From assembly GCF_000499845.2 (NCBI RefSeq), contig NC_023750.2:1225590-1289589 (forward strand): DNA of 64,000 nt, given 5' to 3'. Below are positions 6,704 to 52,880 of this stretch, piece after piece. A model generated the notes under the pieces. It saw only the letters and a list, made by a program, of their open reading frames with translations. It had not been told where the DNA came from and did not search any database. This DNA is from Phaseolus vulgaris. Lineage: Eukaryota; Streptophyta; Magnoliopsida; Fabales; Fabaceae. Position 1 is the stretch's first letter. Every line of letters begins with the position of its first letter. The translations under genes and the position numbers were made by a program.

Positions 6704-8042
6704 TCAGTCTTTCTGGTTGTCCTTGTTTTGTTCATTGATGAATAAAGAAAACAAGACAACAAGAACACCTCCAAGAACTGAAACTCTTTTCCAATCAGCA
6801 CCTGAGGAAGAGGCAAAAGAATCAACTATTCCCAAACTCAGCAAGCCAATGAAGAAGAGGTAAACATTTTTCCTGGTTTTGCCACTACCACTGTTTTCTG
6901 TGTTCACCTCTTTGATCTTTTCCACCTTCTCCTTGGGTTTTTTTTCTTTATCATCAAGTGCCTTCTCTCCAAGGTTCTTGAAGAATAGCCCTTCGTTTCG
7001 GTTCTTCTCCATTTGGCCCTCAAACTCCTCTATTTTCTTTTCACTCTCCTCAATCTCTACTCTGTTAAGTTCACTAGATTCCTCAAATGCTAGCATCTCA
7101 CTCTCTATGTTTGCTGTTATCTGTTCATCACAAATGAATGTAAAAGGGTCATTCTTTAAGTAATTTTCACTTTCATATATATTCTGCAGCATGCAGATTG
7201 AATTATGCAGTATTACTGAGATCTCTTGTTTCGTTTCAGATTTCAATTCTGTAATCAGATTATTAACTGATATTTTCCTTTGCAAGGATTTTATTATATA
7301 AGATAGATACTAGTGAAATATCTAATTAAAAAAATATTTATTAGATTTTTAATTATTGTAGAATTTCTAACACAATTTTAAAAAAAATAATACATTATTT
7401 GTGTTTTTATGTCATGCATTTTAAAAATATATAAATATATGTTTTTAGAAATTATAAATATAGTGTCCGTATTTCAGTTTCTACGTACATCATAACTAAA
7501 AAATATTAAAGACTGTAGACAATGAAGAGTAAAAATCATTAAAATAATATATATAAACAAGATTAAAACTAATTATTTTCAAGTATAGAAGCTAAAAACA
7601 ATAACATTGGATTATAAAAACTAAATAAACTCAAACTTAATCTGGAAAACTGAATCTAATGGTGAGCAAGAAGAAGAAAACATTATGAAGTTTTGAAGAA
7701 AACGTGAAGAAGTTGAAGAAGACATACTCTGGCACCAGCTTCATCCAACTCTTTGAGTGCATCTTCTCCGATCTTGTCGAACTCAGCCTTGGCCTCTTCG
7801 CCGAACTGCGACAAATACGCAGACCTCTCATCAAGAAAATCGGTGAGGCGAACCTTCTGCGTCTGAAGCATGGCGATTTGTGCCAGAAGCTCTTGGCTCT
7901 TCGCATCTCCTTCCGCCGGAGAACCCTCGGAATCGGACTCCTTCGACCTGCAAACGCACCACACGGAACCTCTCACGTTGTGCGGTGGCGCGTGGTGGAA
8001 CGCGTGCAAGGAAGCGTGAACAATGGGCTTGAGAGCAATCAT
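6704..8042 (-). CDS. Probable plastid coiled-coil membrane protein (function unknown)
   Basis: Two exons, 8042..7728 and 7120..6704, join in frame to give 243 residues. The donor AGA|GTATGT and acceptor AACAG|ATAACAG keep phase 0. The N-terminus is rich in Ala, His, Arg and Ser with few acidic residues, like a plastid transit peptide. Residues from about 40 to 165 are a Glu/Lys-rich coiled coil. Two hydrophobic segments near the C-terminus (N-V-Y-L-F-F-I-G-L-L and V-L-G-G-V-L-V-V-L-F) suggest membrane anchoring with the coiled coil exposed. I recall an unnamed conserved plant family with the same order of coiled coil, the motif E-G-L-F-F-K-N-L-G, and two membrane helices, but no established role. 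A longer open frame upstream of the chosen acceptor (to 7285) is intron. The ATG at 8042 is the first in frame; an upstream ATG at about 8050 is followed at once by a stop. Confidence 0.75.
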
Positions 8043-11341: not shown

Positions 11342-14300
11342 ATGTCTTTCTCTGATGGTGATGATGAGATGGAGATGGACTTTCTTCGTGATCGGTACGA
11401 GGACAGCAGAAACTATGAAGTGTTCTTGAGTTTCAGAGGGGAAGACACGCGTGCTTCTTTCACTTCCCATCTCTATGCTGCTCTTCAGAATGCCGGAATC
11501 TTTGTTTTCAAGGATGACGAGTCACTTCCCCGGGGAAGGCAAATTTCACCCTCTCTGAGGCTGGCGATCGAACAGTCTCGAATTTCTGTTGTTGTTTTCT
11601 CCAAAAATTATGCAGAGTCGTGGTGGTGTTTGAAAGAGTTGGAGAAAATAATGGAGTGTCACAGAACCATAGGGCATGTGGTGCTACCAGTGTTCTATCA
11701 CGTTGATCCCTCTGAAGTACGTCATCAAAGAGGGGACTTCGGGGAAGCATTTCGACGCCTTTCGAGCAAGATTTCGAATGAGATTGAGGAGAAGGTGCTG
11801 GATTGGAAGCAGCGGTGGAGGACCGTACTTGGTGAGACTATTGAGGAAAAGGTGCTGGATTGGAAGCAGTCCTGGAGGACCGCACTTGGTGAGACTAATG
11901 GCTTCTATTCGAGGTTGAAATCCTACGTGACAGGCAACGATGCGCTTCCTGCTTCCTCAGAGTTTTATAGAACATTGTCTCTAAGAATAACATTTTTGAA
12001 ATTCATAACATGTTTGTAGGATTGAAGAGTTAGAAAACATCGTGCTGAAGAATTGGAAAGAGGAACTTGCTGAGGCTGCTCAGATCTCAGGGGTTGTAGA
12101 CGTAGATCCAACGTAATAGAAACGCTTCATGCTTTACGAAATTTTACTGAACGTTGTCTCTTTAAAATAATAATTGTGATGTTCATGACATGTATCAAGG
12201 GGGAAAATGAAGATTGCTGATGAGATAGACTCGCTCGTGATGCACTGGATGAACGGACTTCGTACGGGTGTTGAAATCCCGATTAGGTGTGTAGTAAAGT
12301 ATGTGTAATTGAAACATTTCCTGCTTTCAGGTTTTTCCTGTACATTGTCTCTAAAAATAACATTTATGAAATTCCCCACATGTATGAACTAGAGAAATGA
12401 AGACTGAAGATAGGACAGACTTCCTCTTGAAGCAATGGAGGGAGGTATTTTGTGAGCCAGTTAGCATCTCAGAGGTTGCATTCTTAGATCCACGGTAATT
12501 GAAACACTTTAAACTTTCAGAGTTTTACTTAACATTGTTACTTTTTAGCCAAGATAAAAAGGCTATTGCATCACTATACAGGTTATAATACTAACTAGGT
12601 TATATTCTAACCAACCTGTTTCAGTCAATCAATCACATGCAACATTCTTCATATTATTAACAAAAATGCGGAGTAACCAAACCAAACCTAATAAGAAAAC
12701 CTAAAATGCGGAAGATCACGTCTATATCTGCCAACAATCATAAGCGATACAAGGAGGAACACCCTCCCACTGAGAGAGAAGAGAGAGAACATAAAGAAGA
12801 AAGAAACTAAAGTATTATTATTGATTGTATGTCAGCGAAGGTACAATCGAGAAAGATATATATAAGTGGGTATGTATCATAGATACCCAAGCATACCCAT
12901 ACATAACTATGTAATACATCTAACACCTCCCGTAAACTCATGGTGGGATTGGGAACCACCATGAGTTTACCTCGAATGACAAAAAATTTGGAGTCAGACA
13001 CATGTTTAGTGAGAGCATTTGCAATCTACCAGTAGGGAGATGAACCAGAGAGACACACTTCCGTAGTATGTGATCGCGCACGAAATGTAAATCTAGTTCT
13101 GTTTTGGTGCTGCTTCTGGAAACTGACTTCTGTTTGTGAGGACCAGACAATGATGTTAGATCCCATATAAACACTATAACCCGTGGTGGACTTGCGGTCA
13201 TCGACATCTACTCCTCAGTTAGCGTCGCAAATACCAATAATGGAGGAGGAAGAGTTTTTGCAAAGAAGACTTTCATAATGAACTCTTTCGGCGAGATATC
13301 TAAGGATACGTTTTATAGCTTGCCAATGATGATTATGTTGTTGATGCATGATAACGTATGTACTGAGACTGGGAGAGATGCATGTGCCCATCACTAGTGC
13401 AAGTAACCTGTATCTCTAGAAAGTGGTGGAGCGGTCCTAGATCCTTCAAAGCAAACAAAGTACTTAGTTCAGTAATAAGACATTGAACCACAGTAGATGA
13501 TCATCCATTTATGATGATATCATCTACATATATAAGAATAAACATAGTAGATGATGCAAAAAACTTGGAAAAAGAGTTTGCAATGTTGTGCTTAGCTTTT
13601 GGAACCAATATTTTGGTGCCTGCTCAAGTTGTAAGTTGCTTTCTAAAGTTTACACACGTGTGCTGGATCACCAGTGAAAAAACTAGGTGGTTTCTGCATG
13701 TATTCTTGTTCTTCAACCGATGAGGAATGCATTGTTGATATCTATTTGCCTTATGGTAGTTGGAAGTGACAACATGAGCCAAAATAACCCGAATTGTAGT
13801 GTGCTTTACAACTGGGCTAAAAGTCTCGATGTAGTCAAATCCTTCTGTTTGATTAAACCCCTTAGCTACTAACCGTGCTTTGCAACGCTGGAACGAACCA
13901 TCGACATTGAGTTTGGTCTTGAAAATCCCTTTGCAGTCCACCAAAGACGCTCCTTTAGGTAGGGTTGTTAAAGACCACGTATGGTTCTTGAGAAGAGCAA
14001 AGTATTTAGCTTGGAACCATTGTGATGAAGCCACAACCACTTTAACAGTAGCAGGAGGAGAAGGTACAGTAGAGAGGTGACCATAATAGACTTTCGTTTT
14101 AAAAATTCCCACCTTTGATCTAGTAGTCATGGGATGATAATTTATTAAAGGTGATGGAGATGGAGATAAGGTATTGTTGGAAATCCCACATCGACTAGAG
14201 ATAATAATATTTTATTGTATATAAGTGGGTGCAAACCTCACTCCATGAGCCGGTTTTATGGGGTTGAGTTAGGCTTAAAGTCCACTTTGTAATATGGTAT

Positions 14301-17300
14301 TAGAGCCATTTAAAGTCTATCCTAGCGAGTATTTGTTGGGCCTATCGTGCCACCTGCTATCGGACCGTTATCGGACCATTCATAATATGTTGTCCCACGC
14401 ACGAGCTGTCACTCTCGACGTGAGGAGGGTGTGTTTGCAAACATGTTGCAAAGCAATTATTGGAGGAGAAGAAGTAATATTTTCAATCACAGAAGAATAC
14501 GGTATTTCAAACCGATTGGTTTTATCATTGTAAGGAAAATCTGTTTCATTGAAAAGCACATGTCAAATTTTACCAGCGAATAGGAAGTGAAGCATTGGCT
14601 AACAAAGTCAACCCCATATTAGTAATATGGCGATGTTTCTGTTCCACAGATCCATTCTATTGATGAGTACGAGGACAAGTAAATCAATGACGAATTCCAT
14701 GTTCTATAAGAAATTGATTTAGACAAACAAATTCCATGGCGTTATCAATTTGAATAGCACAAATTTTATACCTAGTTTGATTTTTGGAAAACATCTTGAA
14801 TTGTTTAAAAACAGTCGAAACTTGAGATTTAGTATGCATGACATATAACCATGTGTACTTAGAGTATGCATAAAAAAATAGACATAGTACTTGGCACCAT
14901 TAGAGGCAGGAACAGGGGAAGGTCCCCAAACATCAATATAAACGCATTCTTAAGGTACAAAATAAACAGATGAAGAAGAAGTAAATGCAAGATGATGAGA
15001 CCTGCCACGCACACAAGCACCACAATGGTACCATCAGGACCAACTTTGATAGCAAAAAATCACCCACCACCAACAACAAATTTCTCAGAAAGTAAAGGAA
15101 CTAGGTCCCAAGTTTCATTATTTTGAAGCGCACTCTTTTCATCAAGCACAACCTGATGCCAACCAGGTTAAGCTAAGACATCATCTACAAACTTTGGAAT
15201 GGACACATAAGAAATAAATGAAAGGCAGGTAAAAGGTTGAGATAGTCGATGGTAGCTTAAAGCATTATAATGTGGAGAGAGTTTATGGGTAGAACATATA
15301 CCTATAGGATGGCAATGGGAATATTAGGTTCAACTATTGGAGCCAGAAGGGACAGAGAATCTGGCACTAGAAGAGAGTTATCCTGTGGACGATGGGAAGA
15401 CTGACAACTGTAAACTTGAAGAGGTGGTGGAGGAGGAGAATCTTTAGGTACAGTAGACATAATAGGAGGATCAAAGACAACTGGAATGTGTACTTGTTCA
15501 GATGGAGATATAGGTGGAGAAGATAAAAACTTAAAATAAAAGGAAAACTCAGAGAAGGTGACATCTGCAGAAATGAAATTACGGTTAAGAGAGAGTGAAA
15601 AACATTTATATCCTTTTTGAGGTCTAGTAAACCCTAAAAAAACACATTTGTGTGACCTAATAGATAATTTATCAAGACCAAGACAAAAATTGAGAACAAA
15701 ACATGTAAACCCAAAAACTTTAGGTGGTAAGGGATGAAGATGTTCATTAGGAAATAAAATAGAATGAGGAATTTTATTCTATAATACTGAAGATGACACA
15801 CGATTATTTAGATAACATGCACTAAGAACAACATCACCCCAAAAACGTTGAGGAACATCACCATGAAGTAACATTGTACGAGTAGTTTCAACAAGGTGTC
15901 TATTCTTGCGCTCAACCACCCCATTTTGTTGAAGAATGCCATGAAATTTCATAAAAGTGGTAAAAGAATGAGAAAGATACCCATGAAGACACGGTAAACT
16001 CACCCTACTTTTGGTCTATGTAGATGATATGATTATTATAGGTGATGATGAGATTGAAAAACAAACTTTGAAGGACAAACTGACTGCTCAATTTGAGATG
16101 AAGGATCTCGGGAAACTGAAGTACTTCTTTGGGATAGAGGTTGCTTACTCTAGACAAGGCATTAGGCATCTTTATTTCTCAAAGAAAATATATCCTTGAT
16201 CTCCTCAAAGAGACTGGTAAGTTGGGTTGCAAGACTACTGGAGTGCCAATAGAGCAAAATCATAGGATTGGGAATGATGAAGAAAATCCAAAGGTGTAGA
16301 AGACACAATATCGAAGACTTGTAGGAAAACTCATTTATCTATCATACACTAGGCCAGTCATAGCTTATGCAGTTAGTGTGGTTAGTCAATTCATGCTTGA
16401 TCCAAGAGAAAGACACTTGCAAATAGTAAATAGAATTATTTAGTACTTAAAAGCCTCTTTAGGGAAAGGATTGCTATTTAAAAAAGGGGAAAACTTATCC
16501 ATGAAAATATAAACTGATGTTGACTATGCAAGAACAATTGTTGATAGGAGATCCACCACAGGCTATCGCATGTTCCTGTGTGGAAATCTGGTGACATGGA
16601 GGAGCAAGAAACAAAATGTAGTTGCAAGATCAAGTGCAGAAGCAGAATTTAGAGCCATGACTCAAGGGGTTTGTGAACTATTATGGATGAAGATCATACT
16701 CGATGATCACAAAATAAAATATGAAGCTCCTATGGGTTTGGTGTGTGATAATAAGTCCGCCATCAGTATTACACACAATCCAGTTCAACATGACCGAACA
16801 AAGCACGTAGAATAGTTTGACATTTCATTAAGGAGAAGTTGGATAATGGTCTTATAGCCACCGAGTACATCCCTTCAAGACTCCAATTGGCATATATGTT
16901 TATTAAGGGACTTCTCACAAACCAGTTCAAAGATCTTACTTGTAAGTTGGGAATAATAAATATACATTCACCAACTTGAGGGAGAGTGTTGCATAATTAG
17001 GAGAATTATTCCGTAATTAAATGCAGATTTCATTCTCTATTTATTAGGACAAATTTGTTAGTACTTTGATGTGTACAACTTTAATCACCCATTATTTCTT
17101 GCTTTCATTACCTATTATTTCTTTTATTAATTAGGTTGTAAACAGTCTATAAATTGAGACTGTAATTACATTTGTAAATAATATCAGAAATACATTTCAT
17201 CTATTTCTTTCAACTCGTTTATGAAATTGATTATATAAATGCAGAGCGGAGATCGCTAATGTGATAGATTTCCACGTGAAGCATTGTAGGGAGGCACTTT

Positions 17301-20300
17301 TTGAGGCTGCTGGCATCTCTGGGGGCGCAGTCTTGAATTCCTGGTAATTGAAACATTTAGTGCTTGATCATATTTTCACTAAACATTGTCTCTAAAAATA
17401 ACATTTATGAAATTCATCACATCTATGAAGCGGAGAAATGGAGATGATATGATTATTATAGGTGATGATGAGATTGAAATAGTTTGTGCTTTCAGATTGC
17501 AATGGTACACTTTCTCTTAAAGTAACATATTTATGAAAATTCGTAACAAGGTGGGAGATATTGGACCTCATGAATCATTGGAGGGATAAACTTTTTGAGG
17601 CTTCTGGTATTTCAGGGGATAATAAACAACTCTCTTCCAGGTAATTGAAACAGTTCCAGCTTTCAGATTTTTACTGTTCATTATTTTGTCTAAAAATAAC
17701 ATTTATGAAATGTAATGACAAAATAACATTTATGAAAATCATAACATGTATCAAGTAGAGAAATTGAGATAGAAGAGTTGTTGGAGTCTTGGAGGCAGGA
17801 ACTATATGACGCTCTTCAAAACTCAATAGGTGCTGTTGACAACTCAGCAGGTTCTGTTGACAACTCAGCAGGTGCTGTTGACAACTCAGCAGGTGCTGTT
17901 GACAACTCAACAGGTGCAGTCTTTGAATCCAGGTAAGAGGAACTTTAACTCTCTTAAAACTTTTTTATTTTCAGCACTCTTCTATTAGTTGAAATTTGTT
18001 TATTATTACAATTGTTTATATCTCTTCTCTCTCATTTTAGGAACCATTTCATGATTTAGAAATTAAACCTATCTAAAATTGCAACTTCTAATAAATTTTA
18101 ACAAATAGTAAAAAGAAGGCTGGAAAGAGTGTTAAAGAGATTCTCACTACCACTCCTCTTCGAGAGACAGTTGAAACAATTTGTGCTTTCATGTTTTTAC
18201 TTAACATTGTCTATGATAGTAACATTTATTAAATTCATAACATGTATAGAAGTTTAAAAAAGCTGAAGGCTTATAATCGTATAGAGAGCCTTCTGAATCA
18301 TTGGAGGATGGCACTCTGTGAGGCTGTTGCCATCTCGAGGTTGGTAGCCCAGCATTACAGGTAATGAAACACCTACTTTCTCCAATTTTTACTAAACATT
18401 GTCTCTAGAAATAACATGAAATTCATGATATGTATGAAGAGGAATAAAGGATAACGAGATCAACTACCTTGTGAAGCATGCTGGTGACACACTTTGTGAG
18501 GCTGCTGGCATTTCAGGGGTTGTAATCCTGAATTCTGGGTAATGAAACACTTCTACTTTCTCTGATATTTTTTTTAAAGAAATACCATTACTTTATACTT
18601 CAAATTTTTATGTGTCACAGTATCATAATGCACAAATTATAAATTTGCAATTAACCTTTTAAATCAACCTCTTTATTGTAATTTTTTCTCGTTAATTTTA
18701 TCATTGAAAGGTCATGCAGAAACAATCTCATAGAAAGATAAATATTTAAAAGATGAAACCAGGGGAAATATACATGACAATGTAAGAATAGTTATGGTAA
18801 TTGAGTTCTGATAAATATTATAAACACAAAAATTCAAATTAAAAAATATTTATAATTAATTAGAAAGTAATACTAATGGTTTGATGAAATAATAGTTCTA
18901 GTTTATTTAACTGTATTTTCAGGAAATCAAACAAACATTGGTTAAAGTACTAAGAACAAGAGCATGTTTGTTTCATGTTCGTACAAAAATATGTTTTTAT
19001 AAAACCAAAAAATAAGAACAATTGTTTCAGAGAAGTAATTTCTACTAACAATTCCAAAAATAGTCTTTGTTTAACTTTAGTTTTCAATTACTTATATTCA
19101 CAGTTGTGTCACTCCAGCTTATTCCCCATTAAATTTATTTTTTCCCATTCGAAAGGATAGTTTGACATGTGTGCTACAAAATAGTTCTTAAAAATCTAAA
19201 AAATAAAAAAAAACAGTGCATTAGATGAACACACATTTGTTCAAGTATAACTTTCTACTCAAATTTTCCTTTTATTTTGATGCGCATAGTATGGCTCTTG
19301 TTGTAGGAATGAAAGCGAGGCTGTGAAAAATATTGTTAAAAATGTTACAAGTTTGTTGGACAAGACAGAGTTGTTTGTTGCCAATAATCCAGTCGGAGTA
19401 GAATCTCGAGTGCAAGAAATGGTTCAATTGCTAGAACAAAAACAATCAAACGATGTTCTACTACTTGGGGTATGGGGGATGGGAGGAATTGGTAAAACAA
19501 CCATTGCAAAAGCAATTTACAATAAGATTGGCCGCAATTTTGAGGCAAGGAGTTTCCTTGCAGATATTAGGGAAGTTTGGGGGCAAGAAGCTGGCCACGT
19601 TTGTTTACAAGAACAACTTCTATTTGATATCCACAAAGAAAACAATACAAAGATACATAACATTGAATCAGGAAAAATTATATTAAGAGAAAGACTTCGC
19701 CATAAAAGGATACTTCTTATACTTGATGACGTAAATAAATTACAGCAATTAAATGTTTTGTGTGGAAATCGTGAATGGTTTGGTTCAGGGAGTAGAATAA
19801 TCATCACAACCAGAGACGTACATTTACTTAGAGGGAAAAGAGTTGACCAAGTGTTCAGTATGAAAGGAATGGATGTAGATGAATCTATTGAGCTTTTTAG
19901 TTGGCATGCATTCAAGCAAGCAAGTCCCAAAGAAGATTTTATTGAACTTTCAAGAAATGTAGTTGCTTATTCTGGGGGATTGCCACTAGCTCTTGAAGTC
20001 CTTGGGTCTTATTTGTTTGATATGGAGGTAACAGAGTGGAAGATTGTATTGGAAAAACTCAGGAAAATTCCTAATGATGAAGTACAGGAGAAGTTAAAAA
20101 TAAGCTATGATGGTTTAAGTGATGATACAGAGAAAGGAATATTCCTTGATATTGCATGTTTCTTTATAGGGAAGGATCGAAATGATGTTATACATATATT
20201 GAATGGTTGTGAACTTTTCCCAGAAAATGGAATTCGTGTCTTGGTAGAGCGAAGCCTTGTAACTGTAGATGATAAGAACCAACTTGGAATGCATGATTTG

Positions 20301-22837
20301 CTACGAGACATGGGAAGGGAAATTATTCGTTCAAAATCACCAATGGAGCTTGAGGAGCGTAGCAGGTTATGGTTTCACGACGATGTGCTTGATGTGTTAT
20401 CAAAAGAAACTGTAAGACCTTCATTTATTATTTTAGTATTTAAAATATATAAAGCTCATGGAAATATACACATTTATGAGTTGGTTATTAGCATTTATTT
20501 GTTTAATTGATTGTCACAAGAATTATAAAAATTACTTTGGTTGTGAATTGTTTGTTTCCTCTTAGCTTCTAGAATAAATGAGATTTTTTTTTCTCAGGGT
20601 TTTAAAGCTATGCATATTTTACCGTTCCTTTTTTCTGTGATAGGGAACAAAGTTTATTGAGGGATTGACTTTGAAGTTACCAATAAGTAATACAAAATCT
20701 CTAAGAACTAAAGCTTTTATGAACATGAAGAAACTCAGGTTGCTGCAACTTTCTGGTGTAGAACTTGTTGGAGATTTTGAATATCTTTCCAAAGACCTTA
20801 GATGGCTTTGTTGGCATGGATTTCCTCTAGCCTTCATGCCAAAAAGCTTTTATCAAGGAAATATAGTCTCTATTGAGTTAGAAAACAGTAAGATTACAAT
20901 GATGTGGAAGGAGGCTCAGGTATTAATTTAGTTTTTTTATGAATTTTCTTTTAATTTTTCTGTGTTTTGTCTTTTCATGTTAAATTGTGGATTATAGGAT
21001 TTCTTATAGCTAAATTGTTATCATTGACATCACTACAAAAATGGCATATAACTATATATTTAACTTCCCACTTCACTGTTCATGACATTTTAATTGCTTT
21101 CATTTATTTTGTTGTTTTTTATCTATTTTTTCTCTATTGTATTTCTTTTCTTGTAGCTGATGGAGAAGTTAAAAATTCTCAATCTTAGCCATTCTCATTA
21201 TTTAACAAAGACTCCAGACTTTCTGAATTTGCCTAATCTTGAAAAGCTGGTACTCATGGACTGTCCAAGGCTGTCTGAAGTTTCATATACCATTGGTAAT
21301 CTCACCAAAGTTCTACTAATAAATTTTCAAGATTGTATTGGCCTTCGTAACCTTCCAAGAAGTATCTATAAGTTGAAATCTCTTAAAACACTCATTCTCT
21401 CTGGATGTTTAAAGATTGACGAGTTGGAAGAGAGCTTAGAACAGATGGAGTCTTTGACAACCCTTATTGCAGATAAGACTGGTATTACAAGGGTGCCCTT
21501 TTCAGTAGTTAGATCAAAAAGTATTGGATATATTTCATTATGTGGTTATGAAGGATTCTCACGCGATGTATTTTCCTCTATCATTTGGTCTTGGATGTCA
21601 CCAGTAAATAGTCTCTCTTCCCGTGTTCAAACATTCGTGGACATGTCTTCTCTTGTTTCTTTAGATGTACAAAAAAGCAGTTCCAATCAGCTATCATATC
21701 TCTCTGAGGAGCTTCCAAAGCTTCAAAGTCTTTGGATTGAGTGTGGCTCAGACCTTCAACTTTCTCGAGATACATCAAGTATTTTGGATGCTTTATATGC
21801 GACAAATTCTGAAGAATCGGAGTCATCTGGAACCACATCACAAATGCAGAATGTATTTACATTAATTGAATGCAACTCAAGTTCAAAACGTTTTGAGAAA
21901 ACACTTTTAATTCAAATGGGAACAAGTTGGGAAATCACACATATTCTGAAACAGAGAATTTTACAGGTTCCCCTCTCTCTCTCTCAAATGCATCTAATTG
22001 TATTCTGGTTTGAAAATTTACTTATTTTTTGGCAGCTGAATTATTTTTAATACATCAATTCTATCTGCAAGTGTCTTTTGAACAATTTACTTCTTTCGTG
22101 CAAGCTATCATCATTTAGAATACTTTTTGGAAAAAGATCAGAATATTAATTCATGGTAAAATGCGTTTATATCTTGTTATATCATGAATTGTTGAATTTA
22201 TTATAAGGTGGTATTAATGAATGAATTGATAAACTTTGATAAACTTTCAGCATATACATCTTTACTTTTACAGAATATGACTACAAGTGAGGGCGGTGAT
22301 TGTTTGCTCCCTGGCAATTGTTATCCAGATTGGTTAACCTTCAGCAGCAAAGGTTCTTCTGTGACTTTTGAAATCCCTCGAGTGAATGGGCGTAACTTGA
22401 AGACAATGATGTGTCATACCCATTATTCTTCCTCTGAAAATATAACTTCAGATGGGCTAAAAAATTTGTTGGTGATAAATCACACAAAGACCACCATTCA
22501 GCTTTACAAGAGAAATGCATTAGCGTCGTTTGAAGATGAGGAGTGGCAGAGGGTACTATCAAACATTGAGCCTGGAAACAAGGTGCAAATTGTTGTTGTT
22601 TTCTGGAGCGGATTAACTGTTAACAAGACCACAATTTATCTTATATATGAGGGAATTGATGAAAAAGACCATGCACCAAATCTGAATGTTCCCAGTGATG
22701 AATCTTCTCCTCGAGTGGAATCCATGGAGGACTTGAGGGGTGTTTCCGTTAAAAGCTTAACTAAAAGCTTATTGAATAAACTCTCATCATGTACATACTG
22801 TTGTAAATTAAAATTGGAAAAGAAAAATAAAGGTTAA
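11342..22837 (+). CDS. TIR-NBS-LRR immune receptor with expanded TIR-NBS linker
   Basis: Exons: 11342-11913, 12020-12112, 12200-12286, 12393-12494, 17245-17343, 17551-17640, 17759-17932, 18253-18360, 18440-18538, 19307-20411, 20644-20919, 21157-21966, 22274-22837. All junctions are GT-AG and in frame, giving 1392 residues. The TIR domain (about 24-185) starts Y-E-V-F-L-S-F-R-G-E-D-T-R and has the W-C-L-K-E-L segment carrying the catalytic Glu of NADase TIRs. The NB-ARC exon has the P-loop G-M-G-G-I-G-K-T-T (about 532-540), kinase-2 L-L-I-L-D-D-V, G-S-G-S-R-I-I-I-T-T, G-L-P-L-A-L and M-H-D. LRRs follow, then a post-LRR domain opening C-L-L-P-G-N-C-Y-P-D-W. By family, it senses pathogen effectors and signals through TIR enzyme products. 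Unusual points are eight extra linker exons and a 4.7-kb copia mosaic in one intron. Reading through the first donor yields a TIR-only 225-residue frame. The gene looks intact, but expression is unknown. Confidence 0.85.
11783..11896 (+). repeat. 57-bp in-frame tandem duplication in TIR exon
   Basis: Two adjacent 57-bp copies (11783-11839, 11840-11896) each encode 19 residues built on E-E-K-V-L-D-W-K-Q-x-W-R-T-x-L-G-E-T. They differ at a few bases. This is the same W-R-x-x-L-x-E segment that is amplified downstream as separate mini-exons, so the linker module has been duplicated inside an exon as well as exon by exon. Confidence 0.9.
12020..12112 (+). other. TNL linker mini-exon 1 (93 nt)
   Basis: Acceptor TTTGTAG, donor AC|GTAATAG, phase 2 on both sides. 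It encodes 31 residues with core N-W-K-E-E-L-A-E-A-A-Q-I-S-G. It is close to the presumed ancestral end of the TIR exon. The preceding intron (106 bp) keeps the unit-intron features ACATTGTCTCTAA and ATTCATAACATG. Confidence 0.75.
12200..12286 (+). other. TNL linker mini-exon 2 (87 nt)
   Basis: Acceptor GTATCAAG, donor ATTAG|GTGTGT, phase 2 on both sides. It encodes 29 residues. The core is degraded to H-W-M-N-G-L-R-T-G-V-E-I-P, the most diverged of the open units. The GTAATTGAAACA block characteristic of these introns lies about 18 bp after the donor, so the splice site appears to have shifted upstream. Confidence 0.6.
12393..12494 (+). other. TNL linker mini-exon 3 (102 nt)
   Basis: Acceptor GAACTAG, donor CACG|GTAATTG, phase 2 on both sides. 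It encodes 34 residues with core Q-W-R-E-V-F-C-E-P-V-S-I-S-E. The intron that follows is the one enlarged by the copia mosaic. Confidence 0.75.
12536..12925 (-). mobile_element. Copia 3' LTR (minus-strand element)
   Basis: On the minus strand the LTR starts TGTTAGATGTATTACATAG at 12925 directly after a polypurine tract ACGGGAGG, and ends near 12536, where TNL intron sequence (TTAACATTG) resumes. It contains a TATATATAAG-type box. Its start differs from that of the plus-strand LTR at 16987-17212, so the two ends of the mosaic come from different families. Confidence 0.7.
12926..15034 (-). mobile_element. Decayed Ty1/copia pol (integrase, RT, RNase H), minus strand
   Basis: Read on the minus strand from about 15034 to 14530 there is an integrase core with frameshifts and stops (C-G-A-C-V-R-G-R-S-H-H, D-V-W-G-P-S-P-V-P). 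From 14130 to 13624 there is the start of reverse transcriptase (C-K-A-R-L-V-A-K-G-F-N-Q-T-E-G, then F-S-P-V-V-K). From about 13207 to 12938 there is a broken RNase H. The order is normal for copia and runs into the LTR at 12925. No gag or 5' LTR is present. A TRIM fragment sits between integrase and RT. Confidence 0.8.
14175..14440 (+). mobile_element. TRIM-type LTR fragment nested in copia
   Basis: It starts TGTTGGAAATCCCACATCGA, has ATATAAGTGGGTGCAAACCT and GAGCCGGTTTTATGGGG, and is followed at 14295-14307 by TGGTATTAGAGCC, a near-perfect initiator-Met tRNA primer site. Non-coding internal sequence runs on to a purine-rich GAGGAGGGTGTG near 14430, after which copia resumes. The 3' LTR is missing. 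A second copy of the LTR lies at 34083-34201 on the other strand. Confidence 0.75.
15035..15985 (-). mobile_element. Inverted copia segment: integrase C-terminus to RT start
   Basis: On the minus strand the block opens with Q-Q-N-G-V-V-E-R-K-N-R-H and R-F-W-G-D-V-V-L-S-A-C-Y (integrase core end), passes a long linker, and reaches an RT-start block (N-N-E-T-W-D-L-V-P-L) near 15080, stopping at about 15035. What follows leftwards is the integrase start of another copy, so this segment does not belong to the minus-strand element. It would be collinear with the plus-strand element on its right if inverted, apart from missing mid-RT. Confidence 0.6.
15986..17212 (+). mobile_element. Copia 3' half: RT catalytic block, RNase H, 3' LTR
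   Basis: The frame opens inside RT (G-K-L-T-L-L-L-V-Y-V-D-D-M-I), with the YVDD catalytic motif, then continues with stops and frameshifts to a well preserved RNase H (W-R-S-K-K-Q-N-V-V-A-R-S-S-A-E-A-E) at 16570-16815. A polypurine tract GAGGGAGAG precedes an LTR starting TGTTGCATAATTAGG at 16987 and ending about 17212. TNL intron sequence resumes with TTTATGAAATT. The 5' half is missing, as is any clear target duplication across the whole mosaic. Confidence 0.8.
17245..17343 (+). other. TNL linker mini-exon 4 (99 nt)
   Basis: Acceptor AATGCAG, donor CTG|GTAATTG, phase 2 on both sides. It encodes 33 residues with core H-C-R-E-A-L-F-E-A-A-G-I-S-G-G-A-V-L-N-S. The end V-L-N-S is what the last residues of the TIR exon should look like before N-E-S-E-A-V-K of the NB-ARC exon, so it is close to the ancestral form. 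Confidence 0.75.
17431..17530 (+). pseudogene. Dead linker unit carrying a 38-bp copia patch
   Basis: A normal unit start (CGGAGAAATGGAGAT after ATCTATGAAG) is followed not by exon sequence but by 17442-17479, identical to 16022-16059 of the copia reverse transcriptase. The unit intron then resumes (TTGAAATAGTTTGTGCTTTC). Entering at the normal acceptor meets TGA within eight codons, and the exon body is gone, so this unit should be skipped. Confidence 0.8.
17551..17640 (+). other. TNL linker mini-exon 5 (90 nt)
   Basis: Acceptor GTAACAAG, donor TCCAG|GTAATTG, phase 2 on both sides. It encodes 30 residues with core H-W-R-D-K-L-F-E-A-S-G-I-S-G. Confidence 0.75.
17759..17932 (+). other. TNL linker mini-exon 6 (174 nt) with internal minisatellite
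   Basis: Acceptor CAAGTAG, donor TCCAG|GTAAGAG, phase 2 on both sides. It encodes 58 residues. The core S-W-R-Q-E-L-Y-D-A-L is followed by four seven-residue repeats before the exon ends. It is almost twice the usual unit size yet stays in frame. Confidence 0.75.
17829..17912 (+). repeat. 21-bp coding minisatellite, four copies
   Basis: Four adjacent 21-bp units start at 17829, 17850, 17871 and 17892. Each encodes G-A/S-V-D-N-S-A/T. The period is seven codons, so copy-number change keeps the TNL frame. Units differ by single bases. Confidence 0.9.
18253..18360 (+). other. TNL linker mini-exon 7 (108 nt)
   Basis: Acceptor TATAGAAG, donor TACAG|GTAATGA, phase 2 on both sides. It encodes 36 residues with core H-W-R-M-A-L-C-E-A-V-A-I-S. 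The preceding 320-bp intron holds about 200 bp of unrelated sequence (roughly 17945-18165), probably an insertion, before unit-type intron sequence resumes. Confidence 0.7.
18440..18538 (+). other. TNL linker mini-exon 8 (99 nt)
   Basis: Acceptor GTATGAAG, donor TCTGG|GTAATGA, phase 2 on both sides. It encodes 33 residues with core H-A-G-D-T-L-C-E-A-A-G-I-S-G-V-V-I-L-N-S. The following 768-bp intron to the NB-ARC exon holds only AT-rich sequence. Confidence 0.75.
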
Positions 22838-23930
22838 AGAGGATGGTGAATGGATGTAAGGTTAAAGTTGTTTATTATGGTGACTGCAAGCAAACCTTCT
22901 ATTGGTGCTACTTTTTTGTTCAGTCATGTTGAAAGCAGATGCTATGCTCTGCACAGGACCTTGATCATTTGTCCACAAATTTGCACTAGTCTTTTATTTA
23001 TTTTTGTGCTTTATTTTGTTAAAATACATATTATAATATTTTGAAATGTTAAATTTTGGCTTTGTTTAAATATTAGGAGAGTCCAATTTCATGATTTTAA
23101 ATTGGTAAGTTCTTCTTACACCCAATCTTTCTGAACACACTACACTTTTAAATTTCTGGAAATATCTTTCATTCTAGAAATGAAAATCTGAAATTGGAAA
23201 TAATACATTTCAGAAAAGGAGATGCTGAGGAGATTATTGTGTTTTGAATAAAAATTCAGAATAGAATTCAAAAATCAAAATCTCATTCTGAAAATATAAT
23301 TCTGCAATACAAAAAATTTGTTTTGGAAAAAATAATCCGAAAACATATTGCTTTTGTTGGACTGATAAGAGATAGGGCAATTACGCATTCTTTGTTTCTT
23401 CTTGTACCTCTATAATTTTTTAAGACCGTAGGGAAATTACTTTGTAGCCAATGGTCTTCTTTCAACTTCTTTGTGCAATCGACCATACTCTCTCAAAAAA
23501 TAGAAATGATTTTCAAAAGATGTAAATTGATTTTGCACACATGGTTTTGAAAACAAGAGTGATATTTATAGAATTCTAATCTAAGTTATTTTAATTAATT
23601 AAACCTCTTTAGTCAATTATAACAAAGTCTAAGTTTTAACAAATTAAAGCTTCATTTTAGTATGTTAAAATCATTTGTAAGTAATTTTAATTGATTAATT
23701 TGTTATTTAATAAATTAAAACAAAGAATTTAAAAAAACAAATGAAATCTTCAAAAGACAAATTAAATTTTTAAAACACATATGAAGTCTTCAAAGACATA
23801 ATGTCTTTAAATGACAAATGAAAACTTCAAAGATTGACGAAGTCTTCAAAGTCAGACAAAGTCTTTAAGACAAATGAAGTCCTTAAATGAATTTGAGAGA
23901 ACTTTCTAAATGCAGTACTAGATCAAATGA
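22838..23930. other. 3' flank of the TNL gene
   Basis: AT-rich. Around 23110-23480 there is a degenerate stretch with TTCTTCTTACACCCAAT and several TTCTGGAA/TTCCAGAA-like dyads, resembling a worn copy of the Mutator-type MITEs elsewhere in the window. I see no gene. Confidence 0.4.
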
Positions 23931-26640
23931 AGATAAAAAAAACTTACAATACACATCCTATAAAGTACAAACCATACAATAAGAGTTTAGATCTTCACAC
24001 ATAACATTTGATCTTAGTTTTGTTGAGTTAGTAGATGAAAGAATACCCAATCAAATGATCTCATGATTCAACATTTATATGTTTTGACAATATGTATTGT
24101 AATATACGAAGCTCGCTCATGTACATAACTAGTAGAAACTATATATCAGACGATCATGAGAGCCAAACAAATCTATGAACAAATAGACTCTACGCATAAC
24201 ATATCGGACAATACATGTTGTGAAGATTTTATATGATAGACACTGCTAGACATTGCTCGAAGAACAAGAATTGTCAAAAGGATTAACATATCAGACGATG
24301 CAAAGAATACAGGTGCTAGACTATATAGTGAATGCACACTAAATGATATATTGGAAACACTATATAGTGAATGCACACTAAATGATATAATGGAAACACT
24401 ATATAGTGAATGCACACTAAATGATATATTGGAAAGGAAGAAGAGGATGTTACACAAAATTTTAAGACTATATCAAATACTATATCCATCACAGAGGACT
24501 TTAGGGAACAAATGATATAATCAAAGTCTACATCATCTAATGAAGATGAACAAGAATCACTAGACGTTCAACCAAAGAGGGCTGCTAGATGATGATGAGA
24601 GTGAACACTGTCTTCACAGAAAGCATCAGACAATGTCAAGCATATGAGTTGGACAATGCTCAAGCATATAGGAGATATACAAAGGTCTCACAAAGCGTGG
24701 TAGACGATGTCTACAGAAAAACTCAATGAACCTAGCTCATTACAGTGTTAAAGAAAGCTAACAAAATCGACAGACAATAAAAGCTCAACAACGTGTTAGA
24801 CGATAATCAAGTCAACATGACAGACGATGATACGTGTTGGAAAATCGTCTGACGACGAAGTTTCCAAACTTAATATTTCCATTCTATATATGTTCAAATG
24901 TTTTTTATACTCTTTTTGAGAATTCATTGAAAACAGATTAAATTAAAACGAACAATTGGAACCAAGAATAGAATATGCTGGCAAAATTAATTTGAAATAC
25001 AATGCTTAAAATGATCTGCAAGATTATGAACAAATCTCGCTCATCAGGTTCATTGTTTTCTCGTTAGACGCAAAAAATGAAAATTTAGCTTTTATCTTTA
25101 CTCGCGTCTTTAAGTCTCTTTAATAATATTTGGGAAGAAAATAAGTATTAGTGAACATTACAATTTATAATTTAATTCATGAGTATCATTGAAATAATAT
25201 CTACGAATTATTGAGACTTTATTTTCTCAGTTTTTTTCATGTTTAATGCACTTTCAAATACATTTCAAGTTAATATTAAATCAGAACATTGTAACCTAAT
25301 TATATTTAACTTGTATATTATTTCAAAAAAACATATTTTGAAAATTCTTCGATATAGAAAATTATGCTTTGTTTTTTGAATACTTTATAGTGAAATATTC
25401 ATTAGAAAACTTTTCAATAAGTCTTGAATCTAATTCTAATTGCACAACTATATTCGAAAACTTTTTATAATCAATGTGGAATTTTTTTCCATTCACAAAA
25501 CATTAAAGCACAAGGTATTTGAGATTTTCATATTTCTATATTACGCTCTCAAATACGAAAAATTTCCCAAATAATGTAACCAATAATATTATTTGAAAAT
25601 AATATTTTCTATGATTAAGAAAAGTCAAATAAGATTGGAAAATATAAGAGTAGTGTCATAAAACATTATGAGAATGTAAAGATTAAGTATGGACACTTTC
25701 CTAATGTGTGCAATCTTCAGTGTGCGTTTGATGACTTGATAATAAGTGCTTCAATATCACATGCCTTGTGTTATTACTCAAGGGGTTGATCTGATGAGAT
25801 CTTTTGATGAGTTTGTGAGCACTAGGATCATCTGATAAGATCTTTTCAACTACTTCATCTGAATCTTCTTATTGGTATAGTTTGTCGTAGTTTTTCGACA
25901 TCGTTTGACCAATTTCATGTTATTGTCTCATGCGAGACTTTCCTTAAATGTTATCTTTATAAACTCTTGGGCATTTGTGCAATATTAAGACCAAACCATG
26001 GTTGTTTGATTGTCTTTCGTTATAAGCATGTGTCATTATTTGTCTAATAGTCTTTTACTATGTGTATCGTCTGATACATTGACGTTAATGGGTCTTGCTC
26101 ATCTTCTCTATTGTTTTTATTTTTCTAAACTTATGTTGCACATGATTGAGCTTTATTATATACCATAACACATTTTATAGTGTTTATTATCATCAAAATA
26201 TATAGACGCTGATATCATGAAGTCGTCTGATGAATATTGATCATCTGCTGACTTAACATAGTAAAGGTTGAGTTTATGGCATAAGAGACTTGGCTTGTAA
26301 CTTTCTCCAAGGACTTTCCTATCTTCCTTAGCCCTCATTTCTTGCTTCTTACTTTGATTATTCTAATCATTTGGTTGAAAATGAACAACTTCTTCAGGAA
26401 GTTCAACAAACAAATTGATGCAATGGTGCCTTGAGTTTGACCATGGATGCAATGGAGGCAGCGAAATACTTGTAAAGTTGTGGAGGAAGCTCCGAAATGG
26501 TATGGAGTTTAGAGAGTGAAATGGCAGTTTTCTAGGTTCTAGGGGTCAAAGAAAAGGTTAGGCCAACTTGCTTGAGTTATAGTATGCAAGAGAGGATCAT
26601 AGAAAGAGACTAGATGTGCTGAGAGTTTCAGAAAAAAAAA
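23931..26640. other. Degenerate repeat region with CAGACGAT motifs
   Basis: The motif CAGACGAT (or near matches) recurs on the plus strand between 24140 and 24830 and its complement ATCGTCTG/GTCGTCTG between 25890 and 26250, with plain AT-rich DNA between. This suggests two related blocks in opposite orientation, perhaps remnants of one transposon family. No protein domain is visible. Confidence 0.4.
24321..24434. repeat. 39-bp minisatellite, about three copies
   Basis: CTATATAGTGAATGCACACT begins at 24321, 24360 and 24399. The third unit is nearly complete. Units differ at one or two bases (TATAT/TATAA). The open frame on the minus strand through it (24173-24457) is only a consequence of the 39-bp period. 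Confidence 0.9.
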
Positions 26641-52149: not shown

Positions 52150-52880
52150 CAATTAGACTAAATCCATTTCGATATGGACACGGACTAATCTGACTCAACC
52201 TCGGTCTAAGCCGACTCAAGTTGGACCTAGACCGACTTGGCTAAATCTATACCCTGGTCCACTCGGCTAGACCTGGACCCGAACCAAATCGGGTCGACCT
52301 AGACCCGGGACGACTCGTGTCAACTTGGACACTAGACTCGACCTAGTACTAGGAAGGCTCAACTCAACATGGGCACGAGGGCCCATATCAAGTCGAGTCG
52401 GTTCGGGGCTATGACGAGCTGAGTTGACCCAAGCCCATGTCAAGCGAGTCGGTCTAGACTGATGAAAAGCTGAATTGGCCCGTGCCGATGTCGAGCCGGG
52501 TCGGTTGGGTCGATGTCGAGCTGAGCCAAGTCGACCCAGGCGGATGTGGAGCTGAATCGACTCAGGCCGATGTGGAGCTGAGTTGGTTCGGCCCATGTCG
52601 AGTCGAGTCGGTCCGGTCCATATCGAGTTGAGTCTACTTGGGCCTATGTTGAACTGAGTTTGCCTAGGCCTATGTCGAACCGAGTTGGCCTGAACAAACT
52701 TAACCTTGTTCGGGTGCCAACTCGACTTGGGCTTTGGCTCACTCAGCTTGACTTGGGCTTTGGCTCATTCAGCTCGACTTGGGTTAGGGTTTACTTGGCT
52801 TGACTTTGGCATGGACCGACTCGACTCAACATTTTAGACTGACTTTACTCGACCTGGGTTCAGATTGACTCGACTTAACT
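52150..52880. repeat. GC-rich degenerate satellite built on GAGTCGG/CGACTCG
   Basis: The block is strikingly GC-rich for this window and consists of variable units of about 30-36 bp such as GGCCCATGTCGAGTCGAGTC with GGTTCG-type spacers. The left flank carries the complementary form (CCGACTCAA, GACCTAGACC), so the array seems to switch strand near 52340. AT-rich arms on both sides contain GGATT/AATCC words in opposite orientation. The open frame across it is a by-product of base composition. Confidence 0.7.

Follow-up and report, generated by a model that had tools for sequence, protein, structure and literature searches.

Dscam-type tandem exon arrays consist of homologous, phase-compatible exons in a row, of which one per cluster is chosen. 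Here we describe an array of eight homologous mini-exons inside an immune receptor gene of common bean (Phaseolus vulgaris), PHAVU_010G008700, whose models, unlike Dscam-type transcripts, include all units. It lies in a window of 64,000 nucleotides, the whole stretch of DNA that was analysed (assembly GCF_000499845.2, contig NC_023750.2, positions 1,225,590 to 1,289,589 of the forward strand), and is a complete TIR-NB-ARC-LRR receptor (TNL) gene. In the general TNL layout, exon 1 encodes the TIR domain and exon 2 the nucleotide-binding site (NBS), with three or four introns (PMC4100160), and bean TNL genes are reported to average 5.56 exons (PMC5552710). PHAVU_010G008700 departs from this layout in that eight exons separate its TIR and NBS exons. 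RCT1 of Medicago truncatula, which gives anthracnose resistance, is also a legume TNL, and alternative isoforms are reported to matter for its function (PMC4100160); however, its alternative splicing is retention of intron 4, which affects the C-terminus, and the accessible portion of its description mentions no linker-exon array. The closest known relative of soybean Glyma.03G054100, an array gene discussed below, is reported, through a published BLAST label, as an RCT1-like gene of M. sativa (PMC9820483). In the Prunus TNLs Ma and RMja, tandem exon duplication has given rise to repeated modules, with duplications and losses (PMC6141779, PMC4851768), but these are five C-terminal post-LRR (PL) exons encoding a huge region, and not small exons of the TIR-NB-ARC linker. 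In the bean gene the duplicated exons stand between TIR and NB-ARC, and one exon follows the LRR exon. A literature search, with most subscription journals outside its reach, returned no title or abstract opening that describes these linker exons.

Two annotated bean models cover the gene, P0001 (the PHAVU_010G008700 model) and P0002 (NCBI isoform X3). Our own splice has 13 coding exons and an open frame of 1392 amino acids to the terminal stop; P0001, at 1393, is one residue longer because it uses a TAG acceptor at the seventh unit. The features of the array are as follows, in window coordinates.

11342..11913, plus strand: TIR exon (PF01582), ending in phase 2, with two in-frame 57-nt linker-helix copies at 11783-11896
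12020..12112, plus strand: mini-exon U1, 93 nt, in P0001 and P0002
12200..12286, plus strand: mini-exon U2, 87 nt; isoform X3 implies a second in-frame donor at 12299 (exon end 12298)
12393..12494, plus strand: mini-exon U3, 102 nt, from splice sites, the P0001 and P0002 models and stop count
12538..17213, no strand assigned: retroelement stretch within the U3-U4 intron, copia-type matches, ends approximate and set by eye
17245..17343, plus strand: mini-exon U4, 99 nt, whose 3' end TG gives TGA when joined to units starting with A
17431..17550, plus strand: dead ninth unit and the intron remnant after it, with a stop in the array frame and no exon left intact
17551..17640, plus strand: mini-exon U5, 90 nt, from splice sites, the P0001 and P0002 models and stop count
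17759..17932, plus strand: mini-exon U6, 174 nt, with an in-frame 21-nt x 4.7 minisatellite at 17820-17917
18250..18360, plus strand: mini-exon U7, 111 nt from the TAG acceptor that the annotated models use, 108 from an AAG acceptor
18440..18538, plus strand: mini-exon U8, 99 nt, by eye like the single linker segment of ordinary TNLs
19307..20411, plus strand: NB-ARC exon (PF00931, PF23282), beginning in phase 2
20644..20919, plus strand: 276-nt exon, in frame, which NCBI isoform X3 lacks
21157..21966, plus strand: LRR exon, from our own splice, the models and Pfam
22274..22838, plus strand: last exon, with the stop codon, from our own splice and the models

We read this array, with a probability of about 0.57, as a fast-evolving helical spacer that is normally spliced in whole, and in which the symmetric phase makes most losses or skips of units harmless. 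A sequence-only reading of the locus had proposed eight small open units between the TIR and NB-ARC exons, each a multiple of three, flanked by phase-2 GT-AG introns and without a stop in the used frame. Splice sites and frames in the window bear this out for all eight: every donor is GT and every acceptor AG, the TIR exon ends (11913) and the NB-ARC exon begins (19307) in phase 2 as had been said, and the units hold no stop in the used frame against 1 to 7 in each of the other two. Exons and introns alike are repeated, so that the duplicated unit is indeed intron plus exon. Seven of the unit lengths stand, U7 being 111 nt by its annotated acceptor rather than 108; with it the eight units add 855 nt, or 285 residues, in place of the 284 first given. 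Three units (U2, U5 and U8) have AAG acceptors. The core motif thought to mark most units keeps its tryptophan in six of the eight and varies elsewhere (C in U4, A in U8), and the count of eight holds for open units but had overlooked a ninth, dead one at 17431, which contains a copia-like patch. P0001 and P0002 both contain all eight units, contradicting the constant direct joining of TIR to NB-ARC exon that had been named as a refuting outcome, and the proposal of retained, real TNL exons that set the length of the TIR-NBS spacer is supported.

The receptor itself is complete. Pfam places a TIR domain (PF01582, 159.5 bits, cut-off 21.3), an NB-ARC domain (PF00931, 107.2 bits) and a winged helix (PF23282 WHD_ROQ1, 75.6 bits) in it, and the LRR region scores 29.4 bits for PF13855 against a cut-off of 27, although no lone stretch passes the E-value limit. 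Between TIR and NB-ARC, Pfam gave zero domain matches at E up to 0.01, and a known domain in the linker was rejected on this ground. A pseudogene was likewise rejected, every exon being open as far as the terminal stop.

Could the open frames have arisen by chance? In a neutral simulation, with intron-like divergence or up to twice that and a starting consensus written by hand, eight units stayed open and in frame with P = 3e-4 to 7e-3 without insertions or deletions and 1e-9 to 3e-5 with them, the eight entering this estimate being the open ones out of nine. Together with the frame stop counts this led us to reject chance open frames, and neutral decay of the units is unlikely. Neutral decay in homologous loci, which had been named as a second refuting outcome, is contradicted in part: the eight bean units are open and Vigna and Glycine models carry arrays, but one bean unit is dead, and annotated proteins are open by construction. 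The claim that any subset of units leaves an intact receptor proved wrong for 56 of the 256 subsets, all of which join U4, with its TG end, to U6, U7 or U8 and so create TGA. The other 200 stay open, as do 33 of the 36 skips of a contiguous block, and the intact subsets rise to 248 of 256 if U6 and U7 use their alternative AAG acceptors. The U6 minisatellite, which encodes the repeat GAVDNSA, is another source of linker-length change in whole codons.

The units are best read, from sequence comparison, as copies of the TIR exon end (last TIR helix plus TIR-NB linker) together with its intron, because ordinary TNLs end their TIR domain in one such segment. Eleven single-segment TNLs (P0021-P0031, from Glycine, Vigna umbellata, Sphenostylis, Psophocarpus, Trifolium, Lotus, Lathyrus and Cajanus) have one unit match each, directly before the NB-ARC start and of the type WREALREAxxIxGxVVLNSR. 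Moreover, the 3' end of the bean TIR exon is itself doubled in frame, with two 57-nt copies that are 91% identical. Known counterparts are the TIR domains of ROQ1, RPP1 and RPV1: the solved chains of ROQ1 and RPV1 align, where their TIR domain ends, with the single segment of a Lotus TNL. Those alignments show one segment, whereas the bean gene carries two within its TIR exon plus eight that have exons of their own. In the active TIR tetramer, the alphaE helix contributes to both the AE and the BE contacts (PMC8813719), and our reading of the ROQ1 and RPV1 alignments alongside that description suggests that the segment corresponds to alphaE. Within the 537.7-Mb bean genome, eight of nine matches to the linker protein fall at the array locus and the ninth has E = 7.8. 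A genome-wide repeat family was therefore rejected, unit-like sequence occurring at the array locus only, at the sensitivity of the search and with the best candidates scored. A unit profile run on one strand of the best-scoring 8 of 150 other bean TIR loci gave none above threshold (best E 0.12).

One unit of the array has been lost in bean. U4 ends in TG, C and GEMEM come after the next acceptor, and the frame of the dead unit at 17431 stops after GEMEMI. Vigna models carry an extra unit after their U4 equivalent, which in V. radiata P0003 reads ...NSC GEMEITYAIELHMKHW, and by this likeness the bean sequence at 17431 is the remnant of the unit that Vigna keeps. Part of it has been replaced by a 42-nt patch (17438-17479) that is 98% identical to 16018-16059 in the upstream retroelement stretch. 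A deletion filled from copia sequence would explain the patch, that copy being only a candidate source; the patch looks like break-repair filler DNA. The retroelement stretch itself, about 4.7 kb with copia matches and ends set by eye, splits the array between U3 and U4, with copia-type matches on the minus strand at 13627-14211 and 15305-15778 and a plus-strand piece at about 16000-17210 that was judged by eye only. In the V. mungo model P0008, a copia-type reverse-transcriptase domain stands directly before the U4 equivalent, from an element that by eye differs from those of bean. As copia-type sequence thus lies at the same place of the array in both, the U3-U4 intron may attract insertions.

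For relatives, three overlapping protein searches gave 13, 25 and 11 proteins, 33 in all; two of the searches were limited to scoring the 7997 and 7999 candidates with most words in common, so that arrays may occur elsewhere too. Arrays occur in proteins of Phaseolus, Vigna, Glycine, Sphenostylis and Psophocarpus, single segments in those of Trifolium, Lotus, Lathyrus and Cajanus. The 15 array proteins scanned, some of them truncated at the N-terminus, have 4-9 unit matches each (94 reported, 89 aligned), and at least seven are found in Glycine P0012 as well as in Phaseolus and Vigna proteins. These relatives are known from proteins alone, with exon structure inferred and units split by hand. 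An NB-ARC tree built from 25 of the 33 proteins groups 14 of the 15 array genes in a single clade (97/97), divided into a Glycine and a Phaseolus/Vigna side. Of the nine bean segments (TIR end plus U1-U8), eight find their best match in order in Vigna radiata, the exception being U6, and seven do so in V. unguiculata. Against soybean there is a clear match for U2 and U8 only, with U7 ahead by one point (50 to 49). We take U2 as the main unit-level sign that the array is older than the Glycine-Phaseolus split, since U8 would match anyway, resembling the single segment of ordinary TNLs. Some array thus probably predates that split, on sequence grounds with which separate expansion is also compatible.

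Whole inclusion of the units is the state best supported by annotation. Judging from the database gene models, the receptor made by default in bean probably has 285 additional residues, and these are probably helical. Two differences set P0002 apart from P0001: CVVK is added after U2 (12 nt and four residues, which fits the donor at 12299), and the in-frame exon 20644-20919 is absent; this exon is a possible second alternative region of the receptor. In soybean, P0018 and P0019 both belong to GLYMA_03G054100v4, and an in-frame block of units, 85 residues long, is gone from P0019, with C-termini that differ too. P0020 of G. soja, similar elsewhere, is annotated without about 150 residues of a similar array, and all three proteins diverge after the same unit end. 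Optional use of units is therefore possible, going by the annotated U2 donor of bean and the absent soybean block. Glyma.03G053500 (P0033) is listed among chitin-regulated genes with an average fold change of 20 in a study of GmDR1, and Glyma.03G054100 as upregulated in a rust study. As they are regulated in these two expression studies, the soybean array genes are expressed and not silent relics.

How might such a spacer have formed and what might it do? We suggest that the 3' end of the TIR exon, encoding the last TIR helix and the TIR-NB linker, was tandemly duplicated together with the first intron, in a process that probably began before the split between Glycine and Phaseolus/Vigna, and that the fuller relatives thereby came to carry seven to nine units in a row. 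In bean, all units would be spliced in by default, placing 285 residues between TIR and NB-ARC with about one amphipathic helix per unit. Given the symmetric phase, most unit losses, skips and in-exon repeat changes would alter length in whole codons, so the spacer could change quickly while the receptor stays intact. According to a review (PMC8813719), the number of monomers in the oligomer may be set in part by the linker N-terminal to the NB domain, and the bean spacer may tune how TIR domains reach and pack once the receptor is activated, either as a long tether or through copies of the TIR helix that touch the AE and BE contact surfaces. Hydrophobic columns across the 89 aligned units follow helix spacing, and structure models of Vigna radiata P0006 and soybean P0033 have helices running through the array, about one per unit; in the P0033 model, blocks 181-250 and 361-440 reach a mean predicted local distance difference test score (pLDDT) of 58-83, with 38-60 between them. 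The models thus lend weak support to helices in the array, whose packing they do not allow to be read reliably.

Several observations weigh against the helical spacer reading. Unit inclusion rests on gene models, which are predictions, and the two structure models are poor (mean pLDDT 43 for P0006 and 56 for P0033). One bean unit has died. Against soybean, six of the nine bean segments lack a best match in order, being out of order or ambiguous, so that separate expansion or turnover in each branch may account for much of the array. In the NB-ARC tree, the array clade leaves out Psophocarpus P0013, which makes a second origin, or losses, possible. Between bean and four Vigna proteins, linker identity is only 52-57%, with 25-35% of columns gapped, compared with 93-94% for NB-ARC, and pooled pN/pS (nonsynonymous to synonymous differences per site) between units is about 1.1 (bootstrap 0.81-1.53; 36 non-independent pairs), which gives no hint that residues are under strong purifying selection. 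On average, exon pairs are 55% identical (full codon alignment, 36 pairs) and intron pairs 73% (28 pairs), or 66% and 74-77% by pairwise alignment, which suggests that unit exons are not better conserved than their own introns, bearing in mind that the intron alignments are gap-optimised and that exon ends align poorly. A rival explanation is that the units are tolerated baggage, each without a role of its own, harmless in phase and kept only because the receptor would be lost if an included exon acquired a stop or frameshift, while residues drift freely. The pN/pS value, a linker that diverges far faster than TIR, NB-ARC or LRR, the loss of one unit with the frame kept and the differing unit numbers among relatives all sit well with this explanation. 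The recurrence of the helix pattern and of the W/L/E-A/I-S core in the 89 aligned units speaks against it, though the profile selects for them, and so do the seven or more units present in Glycine P0012 as well as in Phaseolus/Vigna proteins; both would also be compatible with baggage whose frame is kept. We consider this explanation unlikely overall, yet one that deserves to be taken seriously.

The helical spacer should also be weighed against combinatorial splicing, in which subsets of units would vary by tissue or after infection and yield a repertoire of spacer lengths. The 200 open subsets, the U2 donor of X3, the AAG acceptors of U2, U5 and U8 and the shared point at which P0018, P0019 and P0020 part, with 85 or about 150 residues absent, would all suit such a system. 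Yet both bean models carry every unit, 56 subsets run into a stop at U4, and P0019 is one single sequence, the support being annotations; we therefore hold a splicing repertoire to be improbable. We would likewise give long odds to the bolder proposal that the Phaseoleae spacer is made of serial copies of the TIR contact helix that occupy or bridge TIR-TIR surfaces, the included number, through splicing or through gain and loss of units, setting the threshold of TIR assembly as an exon-counted rheostat. Fast divergence with the frame retained would also fit a recognition surface, in which the rapidly changing helices would bind proteins of the pathogen or the host, as an integrated decoy placed between TIR and NB-ARC would do, but ROQ1 and RPP1 are described as binding effectors through their LRR and C-terminal domains (PMC8813719) and pN/pS is not clearly above 1, so that this seems very doubtful. 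Finally, regulatory poison exons, in which occasional inclusion of the dead unit or of weak ones would yield truncated TIR-only products or lead to transcript decay, are hardly credible. The dead unit does have an AAG acceptor, a GT downstream and an early in-frame stop, and some U4 junctions create TGA, but the dead unit is in neither bean model.

Receptors found in nature, in several legume crops, carry between one and about nine linker units and amount to an evolutionary length experiment, so that spacer length is testable with existing genes, and the related soybean, mung bean and cowpea genes with similar repeats offer a natural test of a hinge role. The length of the gap between the TIR and NB-ARC domains alone is not distinctive for the array locus: across 83 of 97 NB-ARC matches and 86 of 150 TIR matches, with likely pairs chosen by eye, the median gap in bean is 183 bases and that of the array locus the largest at 7477, but another locus reaches 7318. 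The closest other bean NB-ARC domain is 59% identical, so there is no near paralogue of the array gene among the matches scored. Elsewhere in the window, a 39-nt x 3.0 tandem repeat (97% match) lies downstream of the gene at 24320-24435, several GC-rich tandem repeats of 25-51 nt fall within about 400 bases at 52381-52783, and an open frame at 60926-61864 matches the UDP-glycosyltransferase family PF00201 (73.5 bits).

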